DNA of 37,711 nt from Alphaproteobacteria bacterium (GTDB lineage: Bacteria; Pseudomonadota; Alphaproteobacteria; Sphingomonadales; Sphingomonadaceae), in contig QBLU01000016.1 of assembly GCA_003241875.1 (NCBI GenBank), positions 1 through 37,711 of the forward strand, in the 5' to 3' direction. The notes beneath the pieces are model-generated. The model saw nothing but the letters and a program-made list of their open reading frames with translations, was not told the origin of the DNA and did not search any database. The position numbers and the translations under genes were made by a program. Below, piece by piece: positions 23,930-33,108 of the stretch (positions are counted from its first letter, which is position 1; the number at the start of each line of letters is the position of its first letter).

Positions 23930-24020
23930 GTCACCCCGGCGCAGGCCGGGGTGACAGGACCAGGCGAGCGCCCACCTAAGCCGGAGATGGTGATTCATGG
24001 ATCCCGGCCTGCGCCGGGAT
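23930..24020. repeat. Paired-palindrome element between queG and hydrolase genes
   Basis: Left hairpin: perfect 11-base arms GTCACCCCGGC/GCCGGGGTGAC around GCAG (23930-23955). Right hairpin: ATCCCGGC/GCCGGGAT around CTGC (24001-24020). The layout, outer sequences and total length (91 bases) match the element inside tsaD at 31568-31659. The right half codes for the end of the hydrolase protein. Confidence 0.85.
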
Positions 24021-28224: not shown

Positions 28225-30825
28225 GTGAACGCCCCCGCCGCCTCTCCAATGATTGCCCAATATCTGGCGTTGAAGGACGAGGCGCCCGATTGCCTGCTGT
28301 TCTTCCGCATGGGCGATTTCTACGAATTGTTCTTCGATGATGCCGCCGCCGCCGCCGCGACGCTCGACATCGCGCTGACCAAACGCGGCGAACATGCCGG
28401 CGTGCCGATCCCGATGTGCGGCGTGCCGGTCCATAGCGCCGACGGTTATCTTGCCCGGCTGATCAAGGGTGGCCACCGCGTCGCCATCGCCGAACAGATC
28501 GAGGACCCGGCGGAGGCGCGCAAGCGCCCGGGCAAGAGCATCGTCGCTCGCGCCATCACCCGCGTCGTCACGCCCGGCACGCTGACCGAGGCCAATCTGC
28601 TCGAGCCCAAGCGCGCCAACTGGCTGGCGGCGATTGCACCCGGCAGCACAGTCGGCCTCGCCTGGTGCGACCTGTCCACCGGCGCCTTTGCTACCCGCGC
28701 CTGCGCCGCCCCGGAGCTGGCCGCCGAACTGGCGCGGCTCAACCCCGCCGAACTGATCGCCCCCGAAGGCTGGGCCCCCGAAGGCTGGAGCGCCGCGCCG
28801 GCGACGCTGCGCTCGCCGCTCGAATTCACCCACGCCCGCGGCGAGGCCCGGCTGAAGGCGCGCTTCGGCGTCGCCACGCTCGATGGCTTCGGCAGCTTTT
28901 CTGCCCCCGAGATCGCCGCCGCCGGCGCGCTGCTCGCCTATGTCGAGGCGACCGCCAAGGGCGCGGTGCCGCTGCTGGCGCCGCCGCGACCCGAACTGCC
29001 GGGCAGCACCATGGCCATCGATGCCGCGACCCGCACCAGCCTCGAACTCGCCCGCGGCGCCGGCGGCGGCCGGGCCGGCAGCCTGGAGGCGTGCATCGAC
29101 CGCACCGTCACCGCCGGCGGCGGGCGGCTGCTGGCCGGCGACCTCGCCGCGCCACTGACCGATGCCGCGGCAATCGCCGACCGGCTGGAACTGGTCGCCT
29201 GGTTCTGCGAAGGCGGCGTGCTGCGGATGCGGACCCGCGAGGCGCTGGGCGCCATGCCCGATGTGGCGCGCGCGCTCGGCCGGCTGGCGGTCGGCCGCTG
29301 GGGACCGCGCGACCTCGGCCAGATGCGCGATGGGCTGGCTCTCGCGCTGGCGCTGAAGACGGCGCTGGGCGCACCGAGCCTCGCGACGCCCGCCCTGCTG
29401 ACGGCGACGCTGGCGCGCATCGGCGCCCATGGCGGGCTGGTCGAGGCGCTGCGCCGCGCGCTGGTGCCCGAACCGCCGATCGACGCCAATGCCGGCGGAA
29501 GCATCGCGCCGGGCTATGACGCCGCCCTCGATGTGCTCCGCGAAACCGCCCGCGACGGCCGCAGCGCCGTCATCGCGCTGGAAACCCGGTTGCGCGGCGA
29601 AACCGGCGTCGCGGCGCTGAAGATCCGCCATAATGGCGTCCTCGGCTATCACATCGAGGTCGCTGCCAAGTTCGCCGACCCGCTGCTGCGCGCCGATTCG
29701 GGCCTCATCCACCGCCAGACCCTCGCCGGCGTCGTCCGCTTCGGCAGCGTCGACCTCGCCGCGCTGGCAACGACGATCGCCCAGGCCGGCGACCATGCGC
29801 TGGCGGCCGAGGCGGCGCATCTCGAGGAACTGCGCGGGCTGGTGCTCGCCGACAGCCAGTCCATCGCCGAAACGGCAGCGGCGCTGGCCCGGCTCGATGT
29901 CGCGGCGGCGCTGGCGGAGCTGGCGGCGACCGAAAACTGGGTGCGGCCGCGCGTCGACGGCACCGCCGCCTTCCATATCGAGGGCGGCCGCCATCCGGTG
30001 GTCGAGGCGGCGGTCAAGGCACAGCGGGGACAGTTCGTCGCCAACGATTGCGACCTCGGCGCCGACGCCCGGCTATGGCTGGTCACCGGCCCCAACATGG
30101 CGGGCAAATCGACCTTCCTGCGCCAGAATGCGCTGATTGCGGTGCTCGCCCAGGCCGGCAGCTTCGTGCCGGCGCGCGCCGCCCATATCGGCGTCGTCGA
30201 CCGGCTGTTCAGCCGCGTCGGCGCCGCCGACGACCTGGCGCAGGGCCGCAGCACCTTCATGGTCGAGATGGTCGAGACGGCAGCAATCCTTGGCGGCGCC
30301 ACCGACCGCAGCCTCGTCATCCTCGACGAAGTCGGGCGCGGGACCAGCACCTATGACGGTCTCGCCATCGCCTGGGCGGTGCTGGAGGCGGTCCACGACG
30401 ATCTCAAATGCCGCTGCCTGTTCGCCACCCATTACCATGAGCTCGTCCAGCTTAAGGACAAGCTGCGCTGCCTCGCCACCGTCAATGTCGCGGCGCGCGA
30501 GTGGAAGGGAGAGCTGGTCTTCCTCCACGAAGTCAGGCCCGGCGCTGCGGACAAAAGCTATGGCCTCGCCGTCGCCCGCCTCGCCGGAGTCCCCGGCCCG
30601 GTGCTGGCGCGGGCGCGCGGCGTGCTGTCGCGGCTGGAGGCCAATCGCGACAGGACCGGCGGCATCGCCGCGGGGCTGGGCGACCTGCCGCTGTTCGGCG
30701 CCGCCCCGCCCGAGCCGGTGGGCGACGTGCTGCGCACCCGGCTGGCGGCCATCGACCCCGACGCGATCACGCCGCGCGAGGCGCTCGACCTGCTCGCCGA
30801 GCTGAAGGGACTGGCGGGGGAATAG
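28225..30825 (+). CDS. mutS: DNA mismatch repair ATPase MutS
   Basis: An 866-residue mismatch recognition protein. The N-terminal mismatch-binding [15 protein letters not shown] carries the Phe-x-Glu-type contact region; the connector, lever and clamp domains follow; the C-terminal ATPase has Walker [16 protein letters not shown], the Walker B stretch [17 protein letters not shown] and FATHYHEL. Full length, no damage seen. The likely start is GTG at 28225, without a strong ribosome binding site; ATG at 28249 is an alternative that would still keep the mismatch-binding motif. The 149 bases upstream contain TTGACG at 28124 but no convincing -10. Confidence 0.97.
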
Positions 30826-30857: not shown

Positions 30858-32036
30858 GTGTCATCCCCCCTCATCCTCGGCATCGAATCCTCGTGCGATG
30901 AAACCGCCGTCGCGCTGGTGCGCGGCGACCGCACCATCGTGGCGCAGCGCATCGCCAGCCAGGATGCCGAGCATCGCCCGTTCGGCGGCGTCGTCCCCGA
31001 GCTGGCGGCGCGCGCCCATGTCGACCGGCTGACGCCGATGGTAGCGGAGGTGCTCGGCGAGGCCGGCGTCACCCTCGCCGATGTCGATGCCGTCGCCGCC
31101 ACCGCCGGGCCGGGGCTGATCGGCGGCGTCATGGTCGGGCTGGTCACCGGCAAGGCACTGGCCTGGGGTGCCGGCAAGCCGTTGCTCGCTATCAACCACC
31201 TCGAAGGCCATGCGCTCAGCCCGCGGCTCGCCGATGCCGGCTTGCAATTTCCCTATCTGGTGCTGCTGGTCTCGGGCGGCCATTGCCAGCTGCTCGGCGT
31301 CGAAGGCGTCGGCCGCTATCGGCGGCTGGCGACGACGATCGACGATGCCATCGGGGAGGCGTTCGACAAGACCGCCAAGATCCTCGGGCTGGGCTTTCCC
31401 GGCGGGCCGCGCGTCGAGCAGGCGGCGGCGCGTGGCAATGCCCGGCGCTTTGCGCTGCCGCGGCCGCTGCTGGGCAGCGACGAGCCGCATTTCTCCTTCG
31501 CCGGGCTGAAATCGGCGGTGCTGCGGCAGTGGCAGGCACTTGGGCATGGGGTGCACGCCACCCCATCCGTCATCCCCGCGCAGGCGGGGATCCATCACCC
31601 GGCCGTTGACGCGGGTGGCGACGTTCCGGCGATGGATCCCCGCCTGTCCGGGGATGACGAAGCTAAGGGCGATGCCATTGCGCGGGACCGCGACGACCTC
31701 GCCGCCGCCTTTCAACTCGCCGCCACCGATTGCCTCGTCGATCGCACCGCTCGCGCCCTCACGGCGTTCCCGCAGGCGACGGCCCTCGTCGTCGCCGGCG
31801 GTGTCGCCTCGAACCAGGCCATCCGAGCCGCGCTGTCCGGCCTTGCGGCGCGCCACGACCTGCCGTTCGTCGCGCCGCCGCTGTGGCTGTGCACCGACAA
31901 TGCCGCGATGATCGCCTGGGCCGGAGCAGAGAGGTTCGGGCTCGGCCTCGTCGATGGTCTCGACGCGACCGCCCGTCCGCGCTGGCCGCTCGATCCGGGC
32001 GCCGAGGCGGTGCGCGGTGCCGGTGTAAGGGCATGA
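30858..32036 (+). CDS. tsaD: tRNA N6-adenosine threonylcarbamoyltransferase with repeat insertion
   Basis: A 392-residue protein that makes t6A37 in ANN-decoding tRNAs with TsaB, TsaC and Tsa[17 protein letters not shown] starts the ASKHA fold; metal ligands are His114 and His118 in NHLEGHAL and Asp347 in [46 protein letters not shown] and VAGGVASNQ are all present. Most relatives have about 340-360 residues. The excess is residues about 237-268, coded by a palindromic element between the LKSAV helix and the DDLAAAFQ helix, and the frame stays open. Start is GTG at 30858 with GGGGAG upstream. The stop overlaps gpsA by four bases. Confidence 0.95.
31546..31566. repeat. Small hairpin next to tsaD element
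   Basis: Perfect eight-base arms ATGGGGTG/CACCCCAT around CACGC, directly left of the 92-bp element and also inside the tsaD reading frame. It may be part of the same insertion. Confidence 0.5.
31568..31659. repeat. Paired-palindrome element inserted in frame in tsaD
   Basis: Outer inverted repeats of 29 bases (31568-31596 and 31631-31659) match at 27 positions and enclose 34 bases. Each half is itself a palindrome: ATCCCCGC/GCGGGGAT around GCAG, and ATCCCCG/CGGGGAT around CCTGTC. In the tsaD frame it reads [10 protein letters not shown] on the left and MDPRLSGDD on the right. A related copy is at 23930-24020. Confidence 0.92.
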
Positions 32037-33004
32037 CCGTCGGCGTCATCGGCGGCGGCGCCTGGGGCACGGCGCTGGCCCAGGTCATGGCCGAAACCGA
32101 GCATGTCCTGATCTGGGCGCGCGAGCCCGAAGTCGTCGCCAGCATCAACGCCGCCCATGAAAACCGCGATTTCCTGCCCGGCGTCGCGCTGTCTCCCCGC
32201 ATCCACGCCACCGGTGCCATGGCCGATCTCGCCGGCGTCGCCACCTGGCTCGTCGTTGCCCCGGCCCAGCACCTCCGCCGCGTCCTGGCCGCCGCGCCCT
32301 TGGGCCAGCGCCCGACTTTGGTGCTCTGCGCCAAGGGTATCGAGGCCGGCACCCATCTGCTGATGGCCGAGGTCGTCGCCGATGTGGCGGGCGCCGACCT
32401 GCCCGTCGCCGTGCTGTCGGGCCCCACATTCGCGGGCGAAGTCGCGCGCGGGCTGCCGACCGCCGTCACCCTCGCCTGCGCCGATGCCACGCTCGGCGAG
32501 ACGCTGGTCGCCCGCCTCGCCCGGCCGGCGTTCCGGCCCTATCTTTCCGACGATGTGACCGGCGCGGAGATCGGCGGCGCGGTCAAGAACGTTCTCGCCA
32601 TCGCCTGCGGGGTGGTGGAAGGCGCCGGCCTCGGCCTCAATGCCCGCGCCGCGCTGATCGCCCGCGGCTTTGCCGAAATGACCCGCTTCGGCGTCGCCCG
32701 CGGCGCACGGCTGGAAACCCTCGCCGGCCTGTCGGGCCTCGGCGACCTGGTGCTGACCTGTTCCTCCGCCAACAGCCGCAATTTCACGCTCGGCCTCGGC
32801 ATCGGGCGGGGCGAACGCGCCGCCGACCTGCTCGACACCCGCACCGTCGCCGAAGGGGCTGCCACTGCGCCGGTGCTGGTGGCCGCGGCCGCCGCTGCCG
32901 GCGTCGACATGCCGATCTGCACCGCGGTCGCCGCGCTGATCGGCGGGGCACCGCTGAAGGAAACCATCGCCGCGCTGCTGTCCCGGCCGTTGAAGTCGGA
33001 ATAG
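32033..33004 (+). CDS. gpsA: NAD(P)H-dependent glycerol-3-phosphate dehydrogenase
   Basis: A 323-residue enzyme that reduces dihydroxyacetone phosphate to sn-glycerol 3-phosphate for phospholipid synthesis. The Rossmann motif is [54 protein letters not shown] with the catalytic Lys, and [12 protein letters not shown] follow. The start ATG overlaps the tsaD stop (ATGA), a coupled pair. Transcription probably ends at the large inverted repeat after the gene. Confidence 0.97.
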
Positions 33005-33026: not shown

Positions 33027-33108
33027 CCCGCTCAGGCTGAGCTTGTCGAAGCCGGGTTTTCCAAGGGCTGCCTTCTTGTCCGGCTTCGACAAGCTCAGCC
33101 TGAGCGGG
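33027..33108. repeat. Perfect 29-bp inverted repeat between convergent genes
   Basis: Arms 33027-33055 and 33080-33108 are exact inverse complements, separated by 24 bases. Each arm contains an inner palindrome, GCTCAGGCTGAGC. A degenerate piece lies at 10926-10940. It sits between gpsA and the minus-strand Stealth gene and could end both transcripts. Confidence 0.9.

Follow-up and report, generated by a model that had tools for sequence, protein, structure and literature searches.

A CGTC-1 REP dimer in frame within tsaD of a sphingomonad-like bacterium, probably tolerated as a flexible loop

The tsaD gene of the bacterium studied here (family Sphingomonadaceae) very likely carries a non-autonomous CGTC-1 REP dimer, inserted in a variable surface loop such that the reading frame is kept, the encoded peptide is tolerated and the core of the enzyme is intact. 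Intragenic CGTC-1 REP dimers are already known, and on the sequence tsaD appears to be a further host gene. The gene lies in a window of 37,711 nucleotides (the whole stretch of DNA that was analysed), whose relevant features are given below, with residue 1 being the one that follows the start codon.

28225-30825, plus strand: mutS, upstream neighbor of tsaD (Pfam MutS domains I-V)
30858-32036, plus strand: tsaD, GTG start, 392 codons plus stop, holding the element (PF00814, TIGR03723, open frame)
31542-31688, plus strand: extended loop in full, spanning residues 228-276 (49 residues versus 7 in relative L036)
31546-31566: hairpin with an 8-bp stem that starts with AT and a 5-nt loop, lacking the CGTC tag (part of the extra left flank)
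31568-31659, plus strand: CGTC-1 REP head-to-head dimer, 92 bp (arm search, RNA fold, published family definition)
31568-31596, plus strand: left REP arm with CGTC tag, 8-bp stem, 4-nt loop and CCA tail (exact consensus match)
31597-31630: spacer, 34 bp, differing among copies (comparison of copies)
31631-31659, minus strand: right REP arm, differing from the left arm at two positions (arm search)
32033-33004, plus strand: glycerol-3-phosphate dehydrogenase gene, gpsA-like (Pfam PF01210, PF07479)

The element and its host gene

A first-pass annotation had described a 92-bp element with imperfect 29-bp inverted repeats inside tsaD, and we confirmed it at positions 31568 to 31659, where it encodes TsaD residues 237 to 266. 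The 29-bp arms match at 27 of 29 positions, an inverted-repeat search lengthens the paired arms to 39 nt (85% matching), and the 92-nt element is predicted to fold as RNA with -72.0 kcal/mol. Compared with the consensus, the right arm shows a single mismatch in the stem and a single change in the loop. No Rfam match was found between positions 30800 and 32100 at E values up to 1. The hairpin reported to adjoin the element (31546 to 31566) is real, with an 8-bp stem; its status as a separate repeat was rejected, as the genome held no other copy at up to 3 mismatches.

The host gene bears the marks of a genuine TsaD, with a Pfam PF00814 match at 5.3e-89, an NCBIfam TIGR03723 score of 391 bits (cut-off, 296), the family's conserved residues and a structural match to known TsaD proteins; its best named relatives come from Sphingomonas, Novosphingobium and Erythrobacter relatives. 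The frame had been called open on both sides of the element, and it does run uninterrupted from the GTG at 30858 to the stop codon at 32034 to 32036, where stop and gpsA-like ATG overlap as ATGA. The description of the gene as otherwise intact, with its catalytic motifs kept, also held: the 78 alignment columns that do not vary among 40 other TsaDs are all retained despite the insert. Within the window tsaD is a single copy. A second intact tsaD elsewhere, which would have pointed to a pseudogene here, was sought by a protein search of the genome; the other 16 matches were confined to query residues 201 to 287, the element region, and so no second tsaD was found.

Orthologues without the element define the size of the insertion. 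We searched for TsaD in 41 genomes, own included, and aligned 29 relatives (21 congeners, 1 other member of the family and 7 others of the order), with 8 further matching genomes outside the alignment. As the first-pass annotation had predicted, orthologues show a gap: the segment is absent from 29/29 aligned TsaDs, and positions 239 to 258 have no counterpart in any of 40 further TsaDs, whose loops there measure 4 to 18 residues. The insert was thus seen in one genome only in these searches. TsaD was found in 21 of the 23 other genomes of the genus; the only match in congener G012 was to the element peptide, and G023 gave none. Relative to L036 the net gain is 42 residues, or 126 bp, which is divisible by three. 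Beyond the 92-bp element itself, this gain comprises 34 bp that take in the hairpin at 31546 to 31566. The earlier argument that extra bases must accompany the 92 bp therefore stands, whereas the duplication it offered as their possible source was not detectable. Separately, the TsaD of L053 (G024, same family) has a different in-frame insertion of ~40 residues (SPFVPSEVEG...RPSTSLG) in a second loop, before LVVAGG. Peptides of this kind may be translated sphingomonad repeats.

Copies in the genome and relation to known repeat families

The arm consensus was searched for across the whole genome at up to 3 mismatches, with the backward pattern as a control. It occurred 24 times on the forward and 24 times on the reverse strand, compared to 0 and 0 for the control, so the element is not a chance palindrome; the 24 places and 48 arm matches show a dispersed, multi-copy family. 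Combining the element search (24 places) with the arm search gave 29 places, 22 of which were given gene context, the seven left out being weak or variant-stem matches. Head-to-head dimers of 73 to 93 bp account for 19 of these 22 places. When the genome was searched, as had been proposed, for other copies inside reading frames, the tsaD copy alone among the 22 had coding-like composition on both sides in its frame. A Pfam scan of ten frames over nine own-genome dimer or single-arm copies and others returned one match, pheS, and this copy probably lies before the gene, not inside it, as the first Pfam domain starts at residue 81, beyond the element.

Further palindromic features were noted alongside. 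The base preceding CGTC is C (11) or T (8) in 19/19 own-genome dimers, possibly an additional terminal base. In the interval that separates the gpsA-like gene from the following gene, window positions 33027 to 33055 and 33080 to 33108 are perfect inverted copies of each other (29-bp arms, CCCGCTCAGGCTGAGCTTGTCGAAGCCGG, spaced by 24 bp) and differ in sequence from the tsaD element. A lone REP-like palindrome (TGTCACCCCGGCCTGCGCCGGGGTGAC) lies on the minus strand at 23930 to 23956.

The closest known system is the CGTC-1 REP. In the available parts of its description, a CGTC-1 REP consists of a CGTC tag, a stem of 8 bp whose first bases are AT, a loop of 4 nt and a CCA tail (PMC3733652), and CGTC dimers carry their tags on the outside, have spacers of 20 to 100 bp and occur in many copies (Di Nocera, De Gregorio, Rocco 2013, PMC3733652), without a dedicated transposase (PMC3733652). 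The tsaD element shares the tag, stem, loop and tail, the outside tags, the spacer range, the dispersed copies and the lack of an associated transposase, the last judged by a search for the RAYT domain PF01797. Dimers that are intragenic and in frame are reported to encode 20 to 30 residues, and their targets include tRNA synthetases and truB (PMC3733652). The available text of that paper does not name tsaD as a host, and here the 34 bp of extra flank adds to the gain. The same source equates Rickettsia conorii RPE-6 with CGTC-1 REPs and RPE-4 with CGTC-4 REPs (PMC3733652). The Rickettsia palindromic elements invoked as a precedent by the first-pass annotation are thus an apt one, as CGTC REPs that are likewise read in frame within genes, although they belong to another bacterial order and the likeness depends on that paper's description (PMC3733652). 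Palindromes in frame inside conserved genes, as in Rickettsia, are found here in tsaD and in valS of a congener, both presumably translated.

Other families fit less well. REPs associated with RAYTs (REPtrons) are likewise short palindromes in inverted pairs, but their tag is GTAG rather than CGTC, and the genome studied here has no PF01797 protein (0/1). A RAYT was therefore rejected as mobilizer: the domain occurs in 1 of 24 genomes of the genus, and this sole carrier (G008) has no arm matches. MITEs are also short, non-autonomous and dispersed with terminal inverted repeats, but for the tsaD element neither a target-site duplication nor a parent transposon was found. Duplication was assessed from the flanks of 19 own-genome copies by comparing own-flank with between-copy scores, which were 3.84 versus 4.21 over 20 nt, 4.89 versus 5.19 over 30 nt and 6.05 versus 5.91 (standard deviation, 1.33) over 40 nt. 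Literature searches found nothing on Sphingomonas REPs together with RAYT, no text match to the arm peptide and, judged by titles and abstract openings of the matches listed, no palindromic in-frame insertion in TsaD; for synthetases combined with REPs, they returned PMC3733652 only.

Predicted structure and competing explanations

An AlphaFold2 model of TsaD with the insert had a mean pLDDT of 89.4. Residues 235 to 259 fell below a pLDDT of 50, flanked by helices at 216 to 226 and 260 to 302, so that the insertion point lies in a low-confidence loop between two helices, in agreement with the surface loop expected beforehand. Residues 261 to 270 were modeled as a helix extension with a block mean pLDDT of about 71; with the end of the insert modeled as helix at middling confidence, the loop need not be entirely disordered. 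Foldseek returned Salmonella and E. coli TsaD structures as the best matches (3zet_B, Salmonella TsaD: TM score of 0.81 by query and 0.93 by target, rmsd 2.0). The TsaD fold is thus predicted to be kept, with the insert mostly at low confidence, and on the model the simplest reading is that the inserted peptide is probably a tolerated, mostly flexible loop, accommodated rather than functional.

We propose that in this lineage a non-autonomous CGTC-1 head-to-head dimer entered a surface loop of tsaD that varies naturally, presumably by transposition, and that dimer and 34 bp of extra flank together would have added 126 bp with the frame preserved. Synthesis of t6A is generally essential and only one tsaD copy was found, so insertions that disrupted the frame would not have persisted, in which case survival in frame needs no special explanation. 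The element would then be transcribed and translated as part of TsaD, its 42 added residues forming a largely flexible loop that connects two helices while leaving the catalytic core intact; such a loop beside an intact core suggests an insertion that is tolerated, not useful. We infer translation in vivo, TsaD activity and neutrality from these observations. Counted against this explanation are the lack of a linked transposase and of a target-site duplication, the 34 bp beyond the element, the occurrence in one genome, the failure to find TsaD in 2 of 23 congeners and the helix-like end of the insert.

An alternative hypothesis is that the insertion is regulatory, with a strong mRNA hairpin that impedes transcription or translating ribosomes, or undergoes processing, and in this way tunes TsaD or the downstream gene. 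The stability of the predicted RNA fold (-72.0 kcal/mol for 92 nt) and the ATGA overlap of tsaD with the next gene are compatible with such a role, and many transcribed REPs have been argued to work as RNA elements (PMC3733652, available parts). However, the element sits deep in the coding region, occurs in one genome only and has no Rfam match, making regulation very unlikely. It is highly improbable that the insert instead inactivates or weakens TsaD and that the copy is being lost: 42 residues have been inserted into a generally essential enzyme and the 34 extra bp suggest a later change at the site, but the frame is open, 78/78 conserved residues are present, the fold is kept in the prediction and no replacement tsaD was found. 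Repeats can also mislead assemblers, as in a congener in which valS is joined to a leuS-like fragment, and the repeat might have been misplaced into tsaD. Such an artefact is scarcely credible, given that the reading frame continues across both borders, the flank next to the element has no second copy in the genome, the right arm departs from the consensus and an exact in-frame gain of 126 bp is unlikely to arise by error. Insertion of a REP dimer into a tolerant loop remains the reading that we prefer.

In-frame dimers in other genomes and tRNA enzymes

A second insertion of this kind was found in valS of congener G012, where a 92-bp CGTC dimer (L171, 577 to 668) has the reading frame seen in tsaD, and the net gain over relatives is again 42 residues; the equality of the two gains may be chance. 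In G017, valS is split between contigs C181 and C113 (L181, L212) at the loop that holds G012's dimer, and other, non-conserved sequence stands at both contig ends. An apparent large insertion in valS of G004 (L214, C37) was rejected as an assembly error, as it runs into a fragment, leuS-like by our reading, beside undetermined bases.

Two profile searches with the element peptide extended the sample. The first covered 396 genomes of the order at an E value of 0.001 (101 with matches), and 91 places outside the own genome, taken among the matches listed, yielded two in-frame cases in genes with family support, namely glyS of G359 and pheT of G250. The second covered 396 genomes of the family, partly overlapping the first, at an E value of 1e-5 (59 with matches); its follow-up of 40 places, 22 of them chosen for long open frames, yielded four, namely glyS in G568, glyS in G422, dnaX in G537 and a phosphotransferase (APH)-domain gene in G446. 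Candidates with a Pfam match in which the element precedes the first domain were not internal (L246, L251, L252 on the plus strand, L256, L257 and L351). Those with no family match were not counted (L248, L250, L252 on the minus strand, L262, L293, L294, L377, L379, L380, L381, L396, L399 and L407), nor was L254, whose far-end family match was only below the cut-off. In a 1.2-Mb census of three genomes, none of 31 clusters of at least two REPs lay within a gene by the tests used, single-REP matches being excluded as possibly chance.

Adding tsaD and valS brings the family-supported in-frame cases to 8. Six of these, representing 4 of the 6 kinds of gene, are in tRNA enzymes (tsaD, valS, glyS in three genomes, and pheT), and the remaining two are in dnaX and the phosphotransferase-family gene. 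The same glyS loop holds CGTC dimers in G568 (L386) and G422 (L392) and another repeat-like peptide in G359 (L247), the three genomes representing three genera; glyS of G359 additionally carries a CGTC dimer elsewhere in the gene. The glyS stretch was matched in 88 of 89 family genomes, and 32 of the 88, G422 included, align in one piece of 648 to 732 nt through the insert region, compared to 582 nt for a two-piece example (G334), which points to longer loops in those 32 genomes. On sequence evidence a tRNA-enzyme bias of in-frame insertions is suggestive, but reading frame, frame length and the ease with which genes are recognized all skew the sample, so the bias should be taken as no more than a lead; the dnaX and phosphotransferase cases speak against it. 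A stronger proposal is that in Sphingomonadales, unrelated palindromic families repeatedly enter the same few loops of tRNA-charging or -modifying enzymes (glyS, valS, pheT, tsaD) through insertion preference or selection on the peptide, beyond mere tolerance. We consider this unlikely.

With its element-free orthologous sites, tsaD offers a clean case of a selfish-looking palindrome within an essential-type enzyme outside Rickettsia, and suggests that REPs can lengthen proteins. If the tRNA-enzyme bias survives a full census, it demands explanation; if there is no bias, the recurring loops would still mark where tRNA enzymes take foreign sequence.
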